A DNA stretch of 64,000 nucleotides from the NCBI GenBank assembly GCA_900470775.1, contig UCBZ01000010.1, positions 135,515 through 199,514 of the forward strand, given 5' to 3'. Each line of letters begins with the position of its first letter. Positions within the stretch are counted from its first letter, which is position 1. Positions 1,028 to 62,522 of the stretch are shown here, one piece after another. The notes beneath the pieces are model-generated. The model was not told where the DNA came from. It was given only the letters and a program-made list of their open reading frames with translations, and did not search any database. The position numbers were made by a program, and so were the translations under genes. The DNA comes from Hyphomicrobiales bacterium. GTDB lineage: Bacteria; Pseudomonadota; Alphaproteobacteria; Rhizobiales; Beijerinckiaceae.

Positions 1028-3388
1028 ATGAGTGACGGCCTGACCGCTTTGCATTCCCCCCGGCTCACATCGCCACCCGACGATCCCCGCTCGCTCCGCC
1101 GCCGCGAGGACCAGCGCTTCCTGACCGGCCAGGGCGACTATCTCGACGACCGGCCTGTGACGGACGAACTCTTCGCCGCCGTGCTGCGCTCGCCGCATGC
1201 CCATGCCACGATCGTCTCGATCGATACGGCAGCCGCCGCAGCCTTGCCAGGCGTGCACGGCGTGTACACCTCAGCCGATCTCGACGGACTGGGTCCGCTG
1301 CCGTCCTACATCGTCGTCGCGACCGTTGATCCCTTGATCGTACCGCCGCGCCTGCCCCTAGCCCATGAGCGCGTCCGCCATGTCGGCGATCCCGTTGCTT
1401 TCGTCGTCGCCGACAGTGCGGCGCTGGCACGCGAGGCCTGCGAGCATATCGTCGTCGATTACGACATCCTGCCCTCGGTCACCGAGCTGCGCAGCGCGCC
1501 CGAGCCGGATGCGGCGCAGATCTGGCCGGAGGCGCCGGGCAATCTCTCCTATCGCTTCCATCGCGGCGATGCGGCCCCGGTCGCGAAGGCTTTCGCCGAG
1601 GCGGCGCATGTCGTCACCTGCGACCTCGTCAACAACCGCATCGTCGCCGCCGCGCTCGAACCGCGCATCGCGGTCGGGCATTTCGATCCGGAAACCGGCG
1701 TCTATCATCTCGAAATCAGCGGCGCCTCGGTCCACGCCATCCGCCGCGAGCTGGCGGAGGGCGTCTTCGGCCTGCCGCTCGACAAGGTCCAGGTCTCCTG
1801 CCCCGATGTCGGCGGCGGCTTCGGCATGAAGAACGTCACCTATCCCGAACATGCGCTGGTGCTCTGGGCCGCGCGCAAGCTCGGCCGGCCGGTGCGCTGG
1901 AGCGCCGAGCGCATCGAGGATTTCACCGGCGGTATTCACAGCCGCGACAATGTCAGCACGGCGAAACTCGCGCTCGACCGGAAGGGGCGCTTTCTCGCGC
2001 TCGCCGTCGAGACGATCGGCAATCTCGGCGCCTATGTCTCCTCGCTGGGACCGGGCAGCTCGACCAATGCGCCCGCCGCCGCCATGGGCGGGCTCTACGA
2101 TATCCCGGCGATGACGATGGATGTGCGCGGCGTCTTCACCAACACCGCCCCGATCGACGCCTATCGCGGCGCCGGCAAGCCCGAGGCGAACTATCTGATC
2201 GAACGCCTGATCGAGAAAGCGGCTCACCAGATCCGCATCGACCCGGCCGAACTACGCCAGCGCAACTTCATCCGCACATTCCCCCACCGCTCCGCCTTCG
2301 GCACGACGATCGACTGTGGCACCTTCGCGGAGAATCTCGACCAGGTGCTGCTGGCCGCAGACCGGGCGGGCTTTCCCGCCCGTAAGCGCGCGGCGAAGAA
2401 GCGCGGCAAGCTGCGCGGTTTCGGCATCGGCTGCTTCCTCGAAACGTCGCGCGGCCAGCCCAATGAGGAGGCCTGGCTGCGCATGCGCGAGGACGGCACC
2501 ATCGACATGGCGGTCGGCACGCAGTCCAACGGCCAGGGTCACGAGACCTCCTTCGCCCAGGTCGCGGCCGCGAAGCTTGGGCTGCCGGTCGAGACCTTCA
2601 ATCTCGTCCAGGCCGACACCACCCGCGTCCCGCGTGGCGGCGGCCATGGCGGCGCCCGCTCGCTGCATCTCGGCGGCACCGCGCTGGTGATGGCGGCCGA
2701 CGACCTGATCGCGAAGGCACAGCCGATCGCGGCGCAGTTGCTACAGGTCGGGGCCGACGCACTCACCTTCGAGAACGGCCGCTTCCATACGGCGGCTGGG
2801 CCGGACGGGCTGCGCCGCGAGATCGACCTGTTTGCGGTGGCACGGCATGTGCTCGACAGCACCGGCTCGGGGCTGGAAAGCCATGGCAACAATGTCTGCG
2901 ACGTCATCACCTTTCCCAACGGGGCGCAGGTCGCGGAGGTCGAGATCGATCCCGAGACCGGCGCGATCTCGCTGGAGCGCTATGTCGCGGTCGACGATTA
3001 CGGCACGCTGGTCAATCCACTGCTGACCGAATCCCAGGTCCATGGCGGGCTGGCGCAGGGCATCGGCCAGGCGTTGTTGGAGGAAGCGATCTACGATCCC
3101 GATTCAGGCCAGCTCCTCAGCGCGACCTTCATGGACTATGCCATGCCCCGCGCCGACGACATTCCGTTCTTCGATCTCGCCATGGTCGAGGTGCCGACCA
3201 AGGCCAACCCGCTCGGCGTCAAGGGCTCCGGCCAGGCCGGCTGCATCGGCGCGCCGCAGACGGTGATGAACGCCGTGCTCGACGCGCTGCGCCCGCTCGG
3301 CGTCACCCATCTCGACATGCCGGCCACCCCCGCCCGGATCTGGCGCGCGATCCGCGATGCGCCGGCGAGCACGACAAAGAAGGCCTGA
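1028..3388 (+). CDS. Xanthine dehydrogenase/CO dehydrogenase family molybdopterin-binding (large) subunit
   Basis: 786 residues, the normal length for a CoxL/XdhB-type large subunit. Family motifs are present: GGGFGMKN near residue 262, AYRGAGKPEANYLIERL around 378-394 and GTQSNGQGHET near 500. The C-terminal active-site loop, which usually reads KGxGE, here reads KGSGQAG with Gln at 736 where the proton-accepting Glu normally sits. The enzyme would hydroxylate or oxidise an aldehyde or heterocycle using Mo-cytosine-dinucleotide cofactor. Partner [2Fe-2S] and FAD subunits are not adjacent; the neighbours are a toxin-antitoxin pair and a convergent operon. Substrate unknown. Confidence 0.88.
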   Translation: MSDGLTALHSPRLTSPPDDPRSLRRREDQRFLTGQGDYLDDRPVTDELFAAVLRSPHAHATIVSIDTAAAAALPGVHGVYTSADLDGLGPLPSYIVVATVDPLIVPPRLPLAHERVRHVGDPVAFVVADSAALAREACEHIVVDYDILPSVTELRSAPEPDAAQIWPEAPGNLSYRFHRGDAAPVAKAFAEAAHVVTCDLVNNRIVAAALEPRIAVGHFDPETGVYHLEISGASVHAIRRELAEGVFGLPLDKVQVSCPDVGGGFGMKNVTYPEHALVLWAARKLGRPVRWSAERIEDFTGGIHSRDNVSTAKLALDRKGRFLALAVETIGNLGAYVSSLGPGSSTNAPAAAMGGLYDIPAMTMDVRGVFTNTAPIDAYRGAGKPEANYLIERLIEKAAHQIRIDPAELRQRNFIRTFPHRSAFGTTIDCGTFAENLDQVLLAADRAGFPARKRAAKKRGKLRGFGIGCFLETSRGQPNEEAWLRMREDGTIDMAVGTQSNGQGHETSFAQVAAAKLGLPVETFNLVQADTTRVPRGGGHGGARSLHLGGTALVMAADDLIAKAQPIAAQLLQVGADALTFENGRFHTAAGPDGLRREIDLFAVARHVLDSTGSGLESHGNNVCDVITFPNGAQVAEVEIDPETGAISLERYVAVDDYGTLVNPLLTESQVHGGLAQGIGQALLEEAIYDPDSGQLLSATFMDYAMPRADDIPFFDLAMVEVPTKANPLGVKGSGQAGCIGAPQTVMNAVLDALRPLGVTHLDMPATPARIWRAIRDAPASTTKKA

Positions 3389-3420
3389 GCACGCTGAACG
3401 CCGCCGTACTTGGAAGCGAG

Positions 3421-3541
3421 AACCACGCCGTCATTCCGGGCAAGCGAAGCGCAGACCCGGAATCCATCGTAGAGTTCAACGCCCTTCGATGGATTCCGGA
3501 GCGGCGCGGCTTCGCCGCTTGTCCGGAATGACGGCGTGGTT
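3421..3541. repeat. Palindromic intergenic repeat, family A
   Basis: An imperfect inverted repeat fills the convergent gap between the molybdopterin subunit gene and the SDR gene. The outer arms are AACCACGCCGTCATTCCGG and its reverse complement; an inner pair is built on GGAATCCATCG and CGATGGATTCC. Near-identical core sequences recur at 52903-53021 and 62523-62637. The element could fold into a hairpin at the 3' ends of both converging transcripts. It resembles REP/BIME-type elements of Hyphomicrobiales. Confidence 0.85.
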
Positions 3542-3557
3542 CCGAACCGAATTATCG

Positions 3558-4331
3558 TCAGCTCATCACCAGCCCGCCATCGACATGCAGCGTCTGGCCG
3601 GTGACGAAGCCGCTCCAGTCGGAGGCCAGGAACAGCACCGGCCCCGCCACATCCTCCGGCGTCGCGATGCGTCCGAGCGGTGTCTGCGCGATCAGCATGT
3701 CCTTCACCGCCTCGCGTGTCCCCCGGCTGGCATCGGTCGGATAGACCAGTCCCGGCGCGACGCAATTCACCCTAATGCCGAGCGGTCCGAGTTCCGTCGC
3801 CAGATTGCGGCTGAAGCCGATCAGCGCGGCCTTGGCGGTGGTGTAGTCGTGATAGGCGATGCTCGGGCGCGCCACGAGGTCGCTCGCCATGTTGACGATC
3901 GCGCCCCTGCCCCGCTGCCGCATCAAGGGCAGCACGGCCTGGCAGACATGATAGGTTGCCTTCAGCGCGCCATCCACCTGCGCCTGATAGGCCGACCACG
4001 GCGTCTCCCAGAAGCGCGCCCGGTCGTCCGGGTCGAAGACATAAGGCGCAAACGCGTTGTTGACGACGGCGTCGATCCGCCCGGCCTCCTCGCCGATAAC
4101 AGCGACCATCGCCGCGACCTCTTCGGGCACGGTCACGTCGGCCGCGATCGCCAGCGCCTGCCCGCCCGCCGCGCGGCAGGCCTCAACGACCGCCTGCGCC
4201 GCCGCCTCACTGCGCCGGTAGTTCACGATCACCAGCCCGCCCTCGGCCGCAAAAGCTTTTGCGAGCGCGGCGCCGATGCCCCGGCTCGCCCCCGTAACGA
4301 GGATGGTTTTGTCGCGGAATTTCATCGGCAT
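3558..4331 (-). CDS. Short-chain dehydrogenase/reductase, last gene of the TPP-riboswitch operon
   Basis: 257 residues, a complete classical SDR: cofactor motif GASRGIG at 14-20, NNA at 91-93, catalytic S150 and Y163-x3-K167. It resembles 3-oxoacyl-ACP-reductase-type SDRs, a label that says little about substrate. It begins four bases after the binding-protein gene and so belongs to the riboswitch operon. In context it could reduce the aldehyde delivered by the LuxC-like enzyme to an alcohol, or oxidise a hydroxyl group on the imported molecule. The first point is observed; the role is inference. Confidence 0.85.
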   Translation of the reverse strand: MPMKFRDKTILVTGASRGIGAALAKAFAAEGGLVIVNYRRSEAAAQAVVEACRAAGGQALAIAADVTVPEEVAAMVAVIGEEAGRIDAVVNNAFAPYVFDPDDRARFWETPWSAYQAQVDGALKATYHVCQAVLPLMRQRGRGAIVNMASDLVARPSIAYHDYTTAKAALIGFSRNLATELGPLGIRVNCVAPGLVYPTDASRGTREAVKDMLIAQTPLGRIATPEDVAGPVLFLASDWSGFVTGQTLHVDGGLVMS

Positions 4332-4335
4332 TGCC

Positions 4336-5328
4336 TCAAGGGATCAGATCCGACTTCACGACCTGCGCGATATCGATCGACTTCCCGATCAGTCCGAGCG
4401 TGTGGAAGGTATCGGCGCCCTTCTGCATCAGCTCCGGGTCGAAATGGCCGAGCCCCTTCGCGGCCGTCGTCGGCGACACCGTCGAGATGTTGCGCAGCTT
4501 GATGATCTCGAGATTGAGCGCCTCGTCGCGGCCATTGATCGCCCGCGTCACTGCGACCTTGGCCGCTTCCTCCGGCTTGGCAATCATCCAGGAGGCGCTG
4601 TCGCGATAGGCTTCGAGGAAGCGCTTCAGCAACGGCTTCTTCGCCTCATAGGTCGCCTGCGTCACGACGAAGATGTCGCTCGGCAGGTTGAGATGATCCT
4701 TAACCTCGATGACGTTGAAATCGGCCAGCCCCTTCGACTTCGCCACCAGCAGCCCGGTATCGGTCGCGGCGGTGGCGTCGACCTGCCCCTGGATCAGCGG
4801 CGCAAAGTTGAGCAGCCCGGTGACCTCGATCGTCACGTCGGTCTCTGTCAGCCCGACCTGGTTCAGCAGCACCTGCAGGTTTTGCCGCGTACCGCTCGAC
4901 AGGCTGTAGACGCCGATGCGCTTGCCCTTGAGATCGGCCGGGCCCCTGATGCCGTTGGCCTTGGGCGCGACGACGTTGAAGACATTCTGCGGATAGATAT
5001 TGTAGATCGCGACCAGCTTCTCGCCCTTGTCGAGCGCGAGATAGAGCGCGGCCGGATCGGTGAAGGCGATGTCGGCCTGGCCGGTCAGCATGGTCTGGAT
5101 CGCCGAGCCGCCGCCGGTGCCGGGCACATAACCGAGATCGATGCCCTTGGCCTTGAAGAAGCCCTTGTCCGGTTCGGCCAGCAGATTGGTGATCTCGCTG
5201 ATCGGCTGGCTCCAGCCCGCGACCGTGACCTTGTCGAGGGTTTGGGCGTGGCTGGAGGAGATGCCGGTCACCCCGATCGAGACGGCGCCAAGCAGCGCGA
5301 GCAGGTCGCGGCGTGAACTGTGGAACAT
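4336..5328 (-). CDS. ABC transporter substrate-binding protein, NMT1/THI5-like (ThiY/SsuA class)
   Basis: 330 residues with an N-terminal signal sequence (hydrophobic stretch after SRRDLL, ending ISSSHAQ). The mature part reads as an NMT1/THI5-like periplasmic binding protein: an early GFFKAKGIDLGYVPG segment, GKRIGVYSLSSGTRQNLQ in the middle, and a closing helix region. This class includes ThiY (pyrimidine precursors of thiamine) and nitrate/taurine/sulfonate binders. Position inside a TPP-riboswitch operon favours a thiamine-related ligand. The gene follows the permease by four bases. Confidence 0.85.
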   Translation of the reverse strand: MFHSSRRDLLALLGAVSIGVTGISSSHAQTLDKVTVAGWSQPISEITNLLAEPDKGFFKAKGIDLGYVPGTGGGSAIQTMLTGQADIAFTDPAALYLALDKGEKLVAIYNIYPQNVFNVVAPKANGIRGPADLKGKRIGVYSLSSGTRQNLQVLLNQVGLTETDVTIEVTGLLNFAPLIQGQVDATAATDTGLLVAKSKGLADFNVIEVKDHLNLPSDIFVVTQATYEAKKPLLKRFLEAYRDSASWMIAKPEEAAKVAVTRAINGRDEALNLEIIKLRNISTVSPTTAAKGLGHFDPELMQKGADTFHTLGLIGKSIDIAQVVKSDLIP

Positions 5329-5332
5329 CGGC

Positions 5333-6082
5333 CTATCCTTTCAGATGGTGGCGCAGCAGCAGCCGCTCGGTCAGGAGCGCCGCCTGGTAGAAGACCATGC
5401 CGAGCAGCGTGATCACGATGAAGAGCGCAAACATCAGGCTCGAATCCATCACGCTTTGGGCGGCGATGATCGAGGCTCCGAGTCCGGCCCGGCCGCCGAT
5501 GAACTCCCCGACGACGGCTCCCACCAGCGCCAATACGACGGCGACGCGAAGCCCGGCGAGGATCACCGGCAAGGCGCTCGGCAGCTTCAGCCGCAGCAGC
5601 GTCTGGAGCCGGCTCGCGCCGAGCATGCGGAAGAGTTCGCGCCGCGCCGGATCGACCTGGGCGAGCCCCGTCAGCGTGTTCTCCATCAGCGGGAAGAAGC
5701 AGATCAGCGCGGTGATCACCACCGTCGGCGTCATGCCGAAGCCGAACCATACGATGAAGAGCGGCCCAAGCGCGAGCTTGGGCACGACCTGGCTCGCGAC
5801 GATGTAGGGGTGCAGCAGCCGGCGCAGGAAGCCGGCCTCCGCCAGCAGGATGCCGATGCCGAGCCCGACGGCGCAGCCGAGCGCCAGCCCCAGCGCCATT
5901 TCGGTCGCGGTGATCCGCAGATGCGGCCAGAGGCGACCGGTCGCAATCTCGCTCCACAAGGTCGCGAAGACGGCCGACGGCGCTGGCACGATCAGCGCCG
6001 GCACGCCGCCGAGCCGGCACCAGGCTTCCCATGCAGCGAGCAGGACGAGCAGCAAGAACGCCGAGGCGAGGCGGGCCGTCAT
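5333..6082 (-). CDS. ABC transporter permease, NitT/TauT/ThiX class
   Basis: 249 residues, hydrophobic throughout, with about six membrane segments. It carries the conserved cytoplasmic EAA-type loop near RMLGASRLQTLLRLKLPSAL, which docks the ATPase. Size and pattern match the single permease of NitT/TauT-type importers (SsuC, ThiX). Its start overlaps the ATPase stop by four bases (ATGA). By context it forms the membrane channel for the ligand bound by the NMT1-like protein. Confidence 0.87.
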   Translation of the reverse strand: MTARLASAFLLLVLLAAWEAWCRLGGVPALIVPAPSAVFATLWSEIATGRLWPHLRITATEMALGLALGCAVGLGIGILLAEAGFLRRLLHPYIVASQVVPKLALGPLFIVWFGFGMTPTVVITALICFFPLMENTLTGLAQVDPARRELFRMLGASRLQTLLRLKLPSALPVILAGLRVAVVLALVGAVVGEFIGGRAGLGASIIAAQSVMDSSLMFALFIVITLLGMVFYQAALLTERLLLRHHLKG

Positions 6083-6843
6083 GGCGCTTCGTCCATCGCC
6101 TGCCGCAACGCCCGGCAGAGCGCGTTGAAGGGCTGTCCGTATCGCATCTCGCGCCGGCGCGGACGCGGCAGGTCGATCGGCATGTCGTGATGCAGCCGGC
6201 TCGCCGCCATGATCGCGACGCGATCGGCGAGATAGACGGCCTCCGTGATGTCATGGGTGACGAACAGCACGGTCGTCGCATGCAGCGCGCAGAGCGCCAG
6301 CAGGTCGTCCTGCAGTTCCTCCCGCGTCAGCGCATCGAGCGCGGCGAAGGGCTCGTCGAGCAGCAGCAGATCCGGTTGCGTGATCAGCGCGCGCGCGACG
6401 GCGACCCGGCTCTGCTGGCCGCCCGAAAGCTGGCCGGGATGCCGCTCGCCAAAGGCGCCGAGCCCGACCCGTTCCAGCAGGGCGCGGGCCTCGTCGCGAT
6501 CCTGCGCGGCCGGGCGACGCTTCAGCGACACCGGCAGCAGTACATTGTCGAGGACGCTCAGCCAGTCGAGCAGCGTCGGCTGCTGGAAGACGAAGCCGAT
6601 GCGCGAACCCGGCCCGGTCAGCGCCGAGCCGTCGATGCGCACGCTGCCCCGGTCCGGCGCCAGCAGCCCCGCCGCGAGCTTGAGCAGTGTGGTCTTGCCG
6701 CTGCCGCTCCGGCCGACCAGGCAATGGAAGGCGCCGCGCGGGATCGCCCAGTCGACGCGATCGACGATCGGCGGCTCCGTGCCATAGCGAAAGCTCGCCC
6801 CGTCGATGGCGACGAAGCCATCCGTCGCCGGCTCAATCGACAT
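6079..6843 (-). CDS. ABC transporter ATP-binding protein, NitT/TauT/ThiZ class
   Basis: 254 residues counted from the internal ATG at 6843. I prefer that start to one 14 codons upstream because it limits overlap with the luxC-like gene to 11 bases. Motifs are intact: Walker A GRSGSGKT at 44-51, signature LSGGQ at 139-143 and Walker B LLLLDEP at 159-165, so it should hydrolyse ATP. The downstream permease overlaps its stop. It energises the importer of the riboswitch operon. Confidence 0.88.
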   Translation of the reverse strand: MSIEPATDGFVAIDGASFRYGTEPPIVDRVDWAIPRGAFHCLVGRSGSGKTTLLKLAAGLLAPDRGSVRIDGSALTGPGSRIGFVFQQPTLLDWLSVLDNVLLPVSLKRRPAAQDRDEARALLERVGLGAFGERHPGQLSGGQQSRVAVARALITQPDLLLLDEPFAALDALTREELQDDLLALCALHATTVLFVTHDITEAVYLADRVAIMAASRLHHDMPIDLPRPRRREMRYGQPFNALCRALRQAMDEAP

Positions 6844-8284
6844 AATCGGCGAAACCTTCGGCGGCGAGTTCGGCCGACTGCTCAATCTCGGTGATCGTCA
6901 CGAGGTCGAGCAGGTTGAAGCGTCCGTCATTGTGCCAACCCGCTTCGGGAGCCGTCATCCGCCCGAAGGCGCAGATGCGGGTTACGCCGGCCTCGCCCAG
7001 CAGGGCCGCAATCCGGAACAGCTCCTCGGGCGTAGCCGCGACCGCCGCGCTCTGCAGAAAGGCCCGAAACGGCGCGATCAGCGGGATGACGTCGTCCAGC
7101 CTGTCCACGGCGACGATCTTCAGCGTCCGGTTCAGCCCGCTCGGCGCCAGCGGCTCGGCCTCTTCGACCAGGACGACGCTCCAGGGATCGGCGGCATCAC
7201 CGAGCACGACCCGCCCCTCCCCGTCGAAGGCGCGCATCTCCTCGGCATTCCGCCAGGAAGCGACGCCCGCCGCCTCCGCCACCGACAGCGCCCGGCGCGG
7301 ATGCCGGCGCGCAAAGCCCGCCAGCTCCCGCGAGACCTGCTCGGCGAAATCGCGCGGTGAAATCTTGCCGCCGCGTTCGACGAACAGCATCTGCGGCGCG
7401 TAGCAGCCCTGCTGCTCGTAACGCATCACGTCATGGGCGACGAGCCGCGCCAATGGCCCGGCCCGGCGCGTGTCGAGCGCTGCCGCCGAGACCAGCCCGA
7501 AGCCGATCTTGTGGCCATGGGCTAAGAAGCGTGCCGTCACCGGCGCGCGATCCCGGATCGCCGTCAGGGCCGCATTGCCGCCGAAGGCGACGACCGTATC
7601 CGCCTGATCCAGCCAAACCTGTTCGCTGTCCGCGTCCCCGCCCTTCCACCAGACGATCGCGAGGCACTCGCCCATCCTCGGGTCGATCTCGCCCAGAACC
7701 CTGGCGAACCAACCGGCCAGCAGCGGCTCGGCGCTGGCGACCTTGCCGACCGTTCCCGCCTTGACCAGCAGCCCCGAGATCAGGCTCCACAGCGGCAACC
7801 CCGGCACATTGCCGGCCCAGACATGCAACAGCAGCTCCGGCCCATGGGCGCGCGTGAAGCCGCCCTTCATCGCAGGCTGGAAGGCATCGAGCACAGCGGG
7901 ATTGGCGAAATCCTCGGCAAGAAAGCGCTGCAATTGCGGCGCCCTGAACGTCCTGAGATAGCCGGACAGTCCGAGTCGCACCGTCTCGGCATCGTACCCG
8001 GTCACGATCGGCAGCAGCGCCTCGGCTTTGCGCCGCCACGGATCGTCGCGGTCGAGCAGCCGCGCCACCGCCTTGTCGAGGGTCGCGACGATCTGCGCGA
8101 CGGAACGCGTCTTCAGATAGGCGCGCGCATTCTCACGGACGCGCGCGGCGAGCGCGAGGCTCTGCGCCTCGCTGAGCACCGGCACGGAGACCTGCACGCT
8201 CTCGCCCCAGGCGGCGAAGTCGAGCACGCGCCATTCGACCTCCTCGGTCGACAATCCCGGCAGATGCCCGGCGAACTCGGTCAC
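6833..8284 (-). CDS. LuxC-like acyl-CoA/acyl-protein reductase
   Basis: 483 residues. Family features of LuxC-type acyl reductases (aldehyde-dehydrogenase-like fold) are visible: HVWAGNVPGLPLW at 154-166, a nucleotide-binding VAFGGNAAL at 232-240 and the catalytic cysteine C294 in EQQGCYAPQ. LuxC takes an acyl group from LuxE onto its cysteine and reduces it with NADPH to an aldehyde. It starts two bases after the luxE-like stop, and no luciferase genes (luxA/luxB) lie in the window. Placement under a TPP riboswitch suggests the acid is a thiamine-related compound rather than a fatty acid. Function by family: confident; substrate: unknown. Confidence 0.85.
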   Translation of the reverse strand: MTEFAGHLPGLSTEEVEWRVLDFAAWGESVQVSVPVLSEAQSLALAARVRENARAYLKTRSVAQIVATLDKAVARLLDRDDPWRRKAEALLPIVTGYDAETVRLGLSGYLRTFRAPQLQRFLAEDFANPAVLDAFQPAMKGGFTRAHGPELLLHVWAGNVPGLPLWSLISGLLVKAGTVGKVASAEPLLAGWFARVLGEIDPRMGECLAIVWWKGGDADSEQVWLDQADTVVAFGGNAALTAIRDRAPVTARFLAHGHKIGFGLVSAAALDTRRAGPLARLVAHDVMRYEQQGCYAPQMLFVERGGKISPRDFAEQVSRELAGFARRHPRRALSVAEAAGVASWRNAEEMRAFDGEGRVVLGDAADPWSVVLVEEAEPLAPSGLNRTLKIVAVDRLDDVIPLIAPFRAFLQSAAVAATPEELFRIAALLGEAGVTRICAFGRMTAPEAGWHNDGRFNLLDLVTITEIEQSAELAAEGFADYVD

Positions 8285-8286
8285 GG

Positions 8287-9420
8287 CTAACCCCGCGCCG
8301 CCTTCAGGAACTCGGCGACCGCGAGCGAACAGCCCTTGGAATCGGCGCCGTCGACGCGGCCCAGCAGCCTGAAGCCGCCTTCGACCATGATGCCGGCATC
8401 CTCGGTCAGGATCGCCGAGACGCAGTTGAAATGAGCGAGGTCGTGATGCACCAGCACACCCGTCGAACCCTCGGGCAGGTCCCGCCCGCTCACGGGATCG
8501 ACGACCCGGCTGCGGATCCAGTGCGGCCCGGACTTCACCGGCGGGCAGGTCGCATTGCCGTCATCGTAGAACTGCGTGCTGAGCTCGGTCATGCCGTACA
8601 TGTTGATGCAGGCGCTGCGCGGCACGCCGAGCGCGTCCGAGAGCGCATCATAGAACGCATCGGCGCCCATCTCGCGCGACTGCCCCTTGAATCCGCCGGT
8701 ATCGAGGATGCGGCTTCCCTCGGGCAGGGCAAAGCGCCGCCCTTCCGCCGCCAGCGCATCGAGCAGATGCACGAAGCTGTAGCTCGCGCCGAGCAGCGCA
8801 TAGGGCTGCCCCGAGGCCTGCGCCCGCTCCAGCGCCGCGATCAGCCGGGCCAGGTCGAGACCATCCGCCCCGATGAAGCCTTCGCTGGCCGCTGTTCCGC
8901 ACTCCCGCTTCGCCAGCGCCAGATAATGCGCCAGAGACGAGTTCGGCATCGCCTCCTCGTCGGGGAAGAGGATGCCCATCTCGATCCGCTCCAGCCCTTT
9001 CATCAAGCGCGCGCGGAAATTCACCAGCATCGAGCGGTCGTAGACGGAAAGCATCGGGTGATAGCTGCAGCCCCGGACGCCCCCTTGCGTCGTGCCGCTC
9101 GTCATGAAGACGCGCTGCGCCCTCTCCGGCGGACTGCAGCTCAGCGTCAGGTCCTTGAAGGCGGTGATCGGCACGGCGGGAATGTCGCGCCAGTGGCGGA
9201 CCGTCAGCGTGGTGCGCGCCCGCTGGATGGCGAAGCGTCGATAGGGCTGGTTGTTGGCGAACTGATAGGCGAAGACGTCGAGCGCCACGCGCTCGAATTC
9301 CGCTTCGGTCGCCCCGTCCCGGTCGATGAAGGCGAGCAACGCCTCGATGATCTCAGCTTCCGTCACGGTCCAACCACGCCTTCCCGGAAGGCACCCATGG
9401 TCCGGCGACATGCCTTGCAC
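8287..9420 (-). CDS. LuxE-like acyl-protein synthetase (acid-activating enzyme)
   Basis: Up to 377 residues from GTG 9420. ATG 9411 and GTG 9366 (after GGAAGG) are alternative starts; the shortest gives 359. It reads as LuxE: adenylation loop TSGTTQG, a later NMYGMTELSTQFYD, and a GRVDGADSKG segment. A Cys lies 14 residues from the C-terminus, matching the acyl-accepting Cys near the end of known LuxE proteins. The enzyme would activate a carboxylic acid with ATP, hold it as a thioester and hand it to the LuxC-like partner. It is the first gene after the TPP riboswitch. Confidence 0.85.
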   Translation of the reverse strand: MQGMSPDHGCLPGRRGWTVTEAEIIEALLAFIDRDGATEAEFERVALDVFAYQFANNQPYRRFAIQRARTTLTVRHWRDIPAVPITAFKDLTLSCSPPERAQRVFMTSGTTQGGVRGCSYHPMLSVYDRSMLVNFRARLMKGLERIEMGILFPDEEAMPNSSLAHYLALAKRECGTAASEGFIGADGLDLARLIAALERAQASGQPYALLGASYSFVHLLDALAAEGRRFALPEGSRILDTGGFKGQSREMGADAFYDALSDALGVPRSACINMYGMTELSTQFYDDGNATCPPVKSGPHWIRSRVVDPVSGRDLPEGSTGVLVHHDLAHFNCVSAILTEDAGIMVEGGFRLLGRVDGADSKGCSLAVAEFLKAARG

Positions 9421-9454
9421 GGGGCCTGAGAATCCGGCCTTCGGCGCGAGTTTG

Positions 9455-9476
9455 GAAAAGGGGCGGCTGTCCGCCC
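9455..9476 (-). terminator. Riboswitch-controlled intrinsic terminator
   Basis: Read on the minus strand this is GGGCGG-ACAG-CCGCCC, a perfect six-pair GC stem, followed by CTTTTCC. It lies between the TPP aptamer and the luxE-like gene, where an expression platform would sit. By analogy with known TPP riboswitches, ligand binding would favour this hairpin and stop transcription of the whole operon. The U-tract is short (four), so termination strength is uncertain. Confidence 0.6.
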
Positions 9477-9485
9477 GATGTCCCG

Positions 9486-9588
9486 CATCCCTACGCCGGT
9501 ATGAACCGGATCAGGTTCGGAGGGTCACCGCGTCGTCCGGATTGGGCCCGAACCGGCGGAATCTCAGCCTCCTAGCGAGGCCCCCCTG
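9486..9588 (-). ncRNA. TPP riboswitch (THI element)
   Basis: On the minus strand the conserved TPP aptamer blocks appear in order: GGGGGGCC, then GGAGGCTGAGATTC, an intervening variable arm, then GACCCTCCGAACCTGATCC, a short arm, and ACCGGCGTAGGGA. These match the THI-box consensus (CUGAGA, ACCUGAUC, GCGUAGGGA). The element sits upstream of the six-gene minus-strand operon ending at 3558, and nothing else lies between. Binding of thiamine pyrophosphate should lower expression of the operon. Confidence 0.95.
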
Positions 9589-9727
9589 GGAACGCCATCA
9601 GCATGACGGCGCGCATGCGGCGATGTCAAGAATGGCCGCCCGCGCCGCGGGCATGGCCAAAGCTCGCCGATGAAACATTGCGGGTGCGACGCGCGTTGTC
9701 GAAGCAAACCCGCCAAGGAAACGAAAC

Positions 9728-10310: not shown

Positions 10311-10402
10311 TGGCGGACAGGGAGGGATTTGAACCCCCGATACCCTTGCGGGTATGCCGCATTTCGAGTGCGGTGCATTCAACCACTCTGCCACCTGTCC
10401 GC
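10311..10402 (-). tRNA. tRNA-Ser, anticodon CGA
   Basis: The minus strand reads GCGGACAGGTGGCAGAGTGG at the 5' end, and its 3' end pairs with the acceptor stem and encodes the terminal CCA. The anticodon arm CCGCA-CTCGAAA-TGCGG gives anticodon CGA (reads UCG). The long variable arm (TACCC GCAA GGGTA) is the class II hallmark of tRNA-Ser. The T loop GGTTCAAATCC is standard. Length is about 92 nt including CCA. Confidence 0.95.
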
Positions 10403-62491: not shown

Positions 62492-62522
62492 GTTAACGGC
62501 TCAGACAATCCAGCAAACGCTC

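Follow-up and report, generated by a model that had tools for sequence, protein, structure and literature searches.

The pyrimidine half of thiamine, hydroxymethylpyrimidine (HMP), is supplied by the HMP phosphate (HMP-P) synthase ThiC or salvaged with the help of the importer ThiXYZ and its binding protein ThiY, together with TenA and YlmB. THI5 is a cytosolic enzyme of the NMT1 type with a CCCFC motif, and NCS1/NCS2 nucleobase permeases such as CytX occur under thiamine pyrophosphate (TPP) riboswitches. LuxE and LuxC, in turn, are known from the Lux fatty acid reductase (structure 7xc6). The operon described here, on the minus strand at positions 3558–9597 of a 64,000-nucleotide stretch of contig UCBZ01000010.1 from a member of the Beijerinckiaceae (the window), brings relatives of these proteins together behind a TPP aptamer. 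From sequence comparison we consider it likely that this operon salvages the pyrimidine half of thiamine by reduction and is turned on when TPP becomes scarce. Its substrate is probably 4-amino-2-methylpyrimidine-5-carboxylate, or possibly a close relative of that acid.

The operon, its TPP aptamer and their conservation

Open reading frames and Pfam matches across the window give the minus-strand order luxE-luxC-ATPase-permease-NMT1 binding protein-SDR behind the aptamer. The first two genes encode a LuxE-like acyl-protein synthetase (8287–9363; Pfam LuxE, 69.3 bits against a cut-off of 24.9) and a LuxC-like reductase (6833–8284; Pfam LuxC, 284.9 bits, cut-off 21). They are followed by the ATPase (6079–6843; ABC_tran, 116.6 bits), the permease (5333–6082; BPD_transp_1, 103.8 bits) and the NMT1/THI5-like binding protein (4336–5328; NMT1, 159.9 bits) of an ATP-binding cassette (ABC) importer, and by a short-chain dehydrogenase/reductase (SDR; 3558–4331; adh_short_C2, 204.4 bits), all four above their cut-offs. 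The GTG start of luxE was placed by relatives (the open frame reaches 9420), and the ATG start of the ATPase gene is likewise a predicted one, in a frame open up to 6885. With these starts, luxE and luxC are separated by 2 nt, luxC and the ATPase gene overlap by 11 nt and the ATPase and permease genes by 4 nt, and gaps of 4 nt each precede and follow the binding protein gene.

The TPP aptamer (RF00059) occupies 9468–9597 on the same strand and scored 64.6 bits in cmscan against a gathering score of 54.3, covering positions 1–105 of the 105 in the model; luxE begins 104 bases after it. Three TPP matches were obtained in the 5.55 Mb genome (150 of 300 candidates scored), and relatives share the aptamer at this place (see below), so its position at the operon is not due to chance. 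An earlier note, made from the letters alone, had described these six genes in this order on one strand, tightly packed behind a clear TPP aptamer, at 3558–9588. This description was borne out: all genes exceed their Pfam cut-offs, neighbours overlap or sit at most four bases apart, the aptamer is full-length and the span was correct within nine bases. A terminator-like hairpin, GGGCGG-ACAG-CCGCCC followed by CTTTT (9454–9476, minus strand), was found by a script search in 7 of 24 sequences checked, the window included, and may be the expression platform; a formal terminator scan requiring five T returned none in the window stretch searched.

A scan of 84,980 species genomes yielded 279 related stretches, of which the best 80 were analyzed (the 80 loci). 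They span Alpha-, Beta- and Gammaproteobacteria, with Bosea, Azospirillum, Methylobacterium, Polaromonas, Ramlibacter, Acidovorax, Pantoea, Erwinia, one Enterobacter and metagenome-assembled genomes (MAGs), some of them marine, as carriers among these best 80 of 279. Gene order is kept across the loci, and a compact form, luxE-luxC-SDR without the importer, is found in 14 of the 80; L081 ends before the importer region, L098 shows the start of the ATPase gene alone and L090 has no separately called ATPase frame. In the earlier note, a riboswitch not conserved with these genes in related genomes had been named beforehand as one outcome that would refute its reading; this outcome did not occur. 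A purpose-built covariance model, made from the aptamers of 18 loci and the window, detected the aptamer upstream of luxE in 78 of the 80 loci, 18 of the 78 being among its training rows, and scored the window aptamer, itself 1 of the 19 training rows, at 127.4 bits. One of the two other contigs (L090) starts inside luxC, and the upstream region is therefore absent from the record. A plain-pattern search agreed on the aptamer loci, except that it missed the aptamer of L097, and betaproteobacterial operons carry a TPP aptamer of a different sequence type. The riboswitch together with luxE-luxC-SDR, with or without the importer, is thus a conserved unit.

The contig of L097 is labelled Flavobacteriales TMED123, a label that is probably wrong, as its neighbouring genes and LuxC group with alphaproteobacterial MAGs. 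Genome G637, which carries the compact operon, has elsewhere (L197, 133–1515) a second TPP aptamer; it precedes a Peripla_BP_6 binding protein that may belong to an importer of the acid.

The nearest LuxC to the one in the window comes from Bosea vaviloviae (93%), and the window's genome is probably a Bosea. LuxC relatives (own genome included, E no higher than 1e-40) are patchily distributed, with 31 of 61 genomes in the genus, 19 of 298 in the family and 2 of 297 sampled in the order; at most five candidates per genome were scored for the order and family counts, whose absences are accordingly soft. A quick tree built from 51 rows nests the genes of Pantoea, Erwinia and Enterobacter within the alphaproteobacterial part, which suggests transfer. 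LuxC relatives also occur on 27 PLSDB records, 13 from Pantoea and 9 from Azospirillum, with one each from Pseudomonas, Priestia, Lactiplantibacillus, Levilactobacillus and Niallia. Of the 27, six loci were examined in detail, and the TPP gathering score was reached in five. The Priestia plasmid keeps the ABC form behind a sub-threshold TPP match of 49 bits. In both lactobacilli (L217, L218) the order is TPP-NCS2 permease-luxE-luxC-SDR, with an identical permease accession, and in Niallia (L219) two TPP aptamers precede ThiW-NCS2 permease-luxE-luxC-SDR. The nucleobase permease in the importer's place points to a nucleobase-like ligand. ThiW is a thiamine-precursor importer usually assigned to thiazole, and its presence beside the module in Niallia would leave the pyrimidine for the remaining genes. 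On plasmid p1 of Pseudomonas silvicola (L220), the LuxC match lies in two pieces, unannotated, behind a TPP aptamer, which may reflect a damaged copy or an error in sequencing.

Thiamine genes beside the operon and across genomes

The module is physically linked to thiamine genes. In eleven Ramlibacter regions (L166–L175 and L179), chosen because luxC and thiG are close together, thiD lies between the riboswitch and luxE without exception. Five of them (L166, L167, L172, L173 and L175) show, on one strand, TPP-thiD-luxE-luxC-ATPase-permease-SBP-SDR-thiE-thiO-thiS-thiG, where SBP is the substrate-binding protein; thiC is absent from this run. L179 continues after the SDR gene with thiO-thiS-thiG-thiE, and in L168–L171 thiE follows the SDR gene, with thiO-thiS-thiG on the opposite strand behind a TPP site of their own; a thiO match was not found in the L174 region. 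Pfam confirmed thiD in nine loci (L109, L110, L114, L115, L166, L167, L168, L171 and L175), thiO, thiS and thiG in L166 and L175, and thiE in L166 and L171. A ThiC match is absent from nine of the eleven source genomes and present for L175 (G676) and L179 (G667). Genus-wide, 32 Ramlibacter genomes have both luxC and thiG, and in 16 of these the two lie no more than 10 kb apart.

Similar links exist elsewhere. In L095, TPP-thiC stands immediately before TPP-luxE. Four ThiC-less alphaproteobacterial MAGs (G646, G648, G649 and G651) have two TPP sites each, the first belonging to the lux operon and the second lying close to thiG. In these MAGs 150 of 181–261 candidates were scored, and in the genome-wide TPP scans overall 150 of 157–364, so that absences of sites in them are soft. 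The second site of G646 scores 51.2 bits, below the cut-off, and the operon there is thiO-thiS-thiG-thiE, gene content having been checked in this one of the four MAGs. In the window's own genome, ThiC lies behind its own TPP aptamer and thiO-thiG-thiE behind another. As ThiC is present, the operon of the window would be an additional source of pyrimidine there and not the sole one.

Among 49 operon-bearing genomes searched, ThiC is missing from 13, among them G646, whose source is a chromosome record of 4.1 Mb (L085). Strong ThiG matches were found in 9 of the 13 (in two pieces in G668) and strong ThiD matches in 12, and ThiG is strong in all 17 ThiC-bearing genomes tested. A survey of 60 Ramlibacter genomes counted partial matches as presence. 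Of 14 ThiC-bearing genomes, 6 have luxC and 13 have ThiG, and luxC is found in 28 of the 46 ThiC-less genomes and not in the other 18. Within the ThiC-less group, ThiG is present in 26 of 28 genomes with luxC versus 2 of 18 without (Fisher p = 2.1e-8, relatedness uncorrected). Among ThiG-bearing genomes luxC occurs in 26 of 28 that lack ThiC versus 6 of 13 that have it (p 0.002, also uncorrected for relatedness). The strong signal in this genus is the three-way ThiC/luxC/ThiG pattern only, and simple co-loss gave little. Sixteen of the 60 genomes have no ThiC, LuxC or ThiG match, which suggests full thiamine auxotrophy.

TenA gave no match in 17 of 30 ThiC-less, ThiG-positive carriers, so the known TenA route does not account for the pyrimidine of these bacteria. 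Nor did the genome of the window yield a TenA match.

A proposed salvage route and its alternatives

Thiazole makers without ThiC need a pyrimidine, and many of them share this module, which has a TPP aptamer, stands beside thiD in Ramlibacter and encodes enzymes that would convert a carboxylate to an alcohol. Hence, the alcohol formed by the module would most simply be HMP, and the acid from which it is made the corresponding 5-carboxylate. This compound is known from rat urine as a metabolite of thiamine (Neal and Pearson 1964, as cited in PMC7780320). In the proposed route, the ABC importer, or a nucleobase permease in some bacteria, would take up the carboxylated thiamine pyrimidine. LuxE may then activate the carboxylate with ATP and hold the acyl group as a thioester on its C-terminal cysteine, LuxC could use NADPH to reduce this thioester to an aldehyde, and the latter would be converted into HMP by the SDR. 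Finally, ThiD may phosphorylate HMP, and ThiE could couple the product to the thiazole that ThiG supplies. Which acid is used, the individual reactions and their cofactors, the direction in which the SDR works and the response of the riboswitch are inferences from genome comparison.

The protein sequences are in line with such chemistry. The window LuxE aligns to 7xc6_E with its C-terminal GCSL conserved, and GCS is present in all 79 luxE frames that the 80 loci yielded. The window LuxC aligns to 7xc6_A with Cys294 opposite the cysteine of YDQQACFS; a cysteine occupies this place in 80 of 80 loci by alignment, a count that is partly search-driven because one of the two scan patterns contains that residue. 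Eight of the 80 loci escaped a search with a strict LuxC motif. We take the aligned cysteines of LuxE and LuxC to be the catalytic acyl-carrying residues, and their conservation makes thioester chemistry plausible. The binding protein was predicted with a mean local confidence (pLDDT) of 81.6. The nearest folds of the model are the thiamin-bound 4nmy and 3ix1, a binder of formylaminopyrimidine (FAMP), with sulfonate binders close behind (TM of the query 0.79 to 3ix1, 0.76 to 4nmy and 0.71 to SsuA). It contains no cysteine, has ABC partners and is missing in the 14 compact operons, and a role as a THI5-type HMP-P synthase was rejected on these grounds.

According to the earlier note, the operon takes up a thiamine-related carboxylic acid that is then converted by reduction into an alcohol, a proposal which genome comparison supports and narrows to the pyrimidine moiety. 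It knew of no characterised salvage route with this enzyme set; in the open-access literature (titles and abstract starts, most subscription papers lying outside), there was none among the matches listed, nor any account of LuxE or LuxC in thiamine metabolism.

The same enzymes under TPP control would also suit the salvage of thiazole or of whole oxidised thiamine, in which 4-methylthiazole-5-acetate or thiamine acetic acid is imported and reduced to the hydroxyethyl form. Oxidised thiamine products such as thiazole acetate and thiamine acetic acid are known, and the fold of the binding protein is matched best by a thiamin-bound protein. Yet this alternative appears unlikely and was set aside because ThiG is kept: ThiC-less carriers with ThiG (26 of 28 in Ramlibacter) can make thiazole and need a pyrimidine. 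It also fits poorly with thiD in the operon in all eleven Ramlibacter regions (thiM was not searched for), with the separate ThiW in Niallia and with the nucleobase permeases that substitute for the importer. An importer that carries HMP or FAMP, as proposed for ThiXYZ, would agree with the resemblance to the FAMP binder 3ix1, and luxE, luxC and the SDR gene would then handle side-product aldehydes or acids. The 14 operons without importer, however, mark the three enzymes as the core, the use of ATP by LuxE suits the direction from acid to aldehyde, and 17 of the 30 ThiC-less carriers lack a TenA match for the processing of FAMP, which together leave this explanation with a rather small chance. 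We regard as least probable of all that the substrate of LuxE, LuxC and the SDR is a fatty acid, or another acid with no relation to thiamine, and that riboswitch and importer share their transcript by chance. Public annotations (acyl-CoA reductase, long-chain fatty acid–CoA ligase, 3-oxoacyl-ACP reductase) speak for it, but the scores fall far under the LuxC and LuxE equivalog cut-offs, the ThiC/ThiG pattern in Ramlibacter argues otherwise, and the TPP aptamer accompanies the genes in 78 of 80 loci and five of six plasmid loci (49 bits in the sixth). It was set aside because of this riboswitch and the position of the module within thiamine operons.

Several observations weigh against pyrimidine salvage by this operon. 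ThiC is present in 36 of the 49 operon-bearing genomes, ThiG matches are weak (20–27 bits) in 4 of the 13 that lack it, and the operon alone tracks ThiC loss poorly (luxC in 28 of 46 ThiC-less versus 6 of 14 ThiC-bearing Ramlibacter genomes). As luxC and thiG are often neighbours in Ramlibacter, their joint loss in full auxotrophs could produce part of the pattern, and counts within one genus are non-independent. Many genomes are drafts or MAGs of unstated completeness, and some gene absences may therefore be gaps. TenA is strong in 8 and weak in 5 of the 30 ThiC-less, ThiG-positive carriers, in which another pyrimidine source is possible. The covariance model found no aptamer in L084, one of 79 loci with an upstream stretch, and compact operons contain no importer gene. 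Finally, generic FabG-like reductases resemble the SDR closely (its nearest NCBIfam model is PRK08642, at 291.8 bits with a cut-off of 292), and another substrate is possible.

A further-reaching version of the proposal is that the luxE-luxC-SDR core takes the place of ThiC as sole supplier of pyrimidine in many ThiC-less bacteria, and that the compact form uses acid made in the cell, i. e. forms a further pyrimidine route independent of ThiC and THI5. We consider this unlikely. Calls of HMP auxotrophy rest largely on missing thiC; if the salvage route is real, some ThiC-less genomes are wrongly classed as HMP auxotrophs, and the route may explain how some bacteria manage without ThiC. HMP auxotrophy is given as the commonest form of B1 auxotrophy in marine microbes in PMC11452348. 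A B1 breakdown product that has not been measured would then serve as a nutrient in soil and marine environments as well as in plant and food settings, luxE/luxC-type genes would gain a role beyond bioluminescence, and annotations such as "long-chain fatty acid–CoA ligase" would need correction.

Surroundings and relation to known systems

Upstream of the operon lies a tRNA (10314–10400). Downstream, a convergent gene (1028–3388) encodes a molybdopterin oxidoreductase, the large subunit of the CO dehydrogenase/xanthine dehydrogenase type. Between it and the SDR gene, at 3420–3542, are nested inverted repeats with arms of 27 and 24 nt that resemble repetitive extragenic palindromes (REP); their core CCGTCATTCCGG is present again at 62522. 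Further away, a FitA-like antitoxin gene and a gene for a PIN-domain protein, with a 4-base overlap, form a likely toxin-antitoxin pair at 190–860.

Compared with the Lux fatty acid reductase, the operon shares the Pfam LuxE and LuxC families, the adjacency of the two genes and both cysteines. It differs by the absence of luxA, luxB and luxD and by having a TPP aptamer, an SDR and an importer of its own; its LuxE and LuxC also remain far below the NCBIfam cut-offs for bioluminescence equivalogs (74 versus 550 bits and 71.7 versus 750 bits, respectively). With ThiXYZ/ThiY and TenA-YlmB it has in common the NMT1/THI5 fold of the binding protein, accompanied by ATPase and permease, as well as predicted TPP control and the logic of pyrimidine salvage, whereas the proposed chemistry is a carboxylate reduction and not the hydrolysis carried out by TenA. 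The module would fill the same position in the pathway as ThiC, the supply of the thiamine pyrimidine, but implies neither radical chemistry nor de novo synthesis and would require an external or recycled acid. The NCS1/NCS2 permeases under TPP riboswitches, lastly, are represented by the NCS2 permease that serves as the operon transporter in L217–L219, with the difference that in these loci the putative reductive module comes after the permease.

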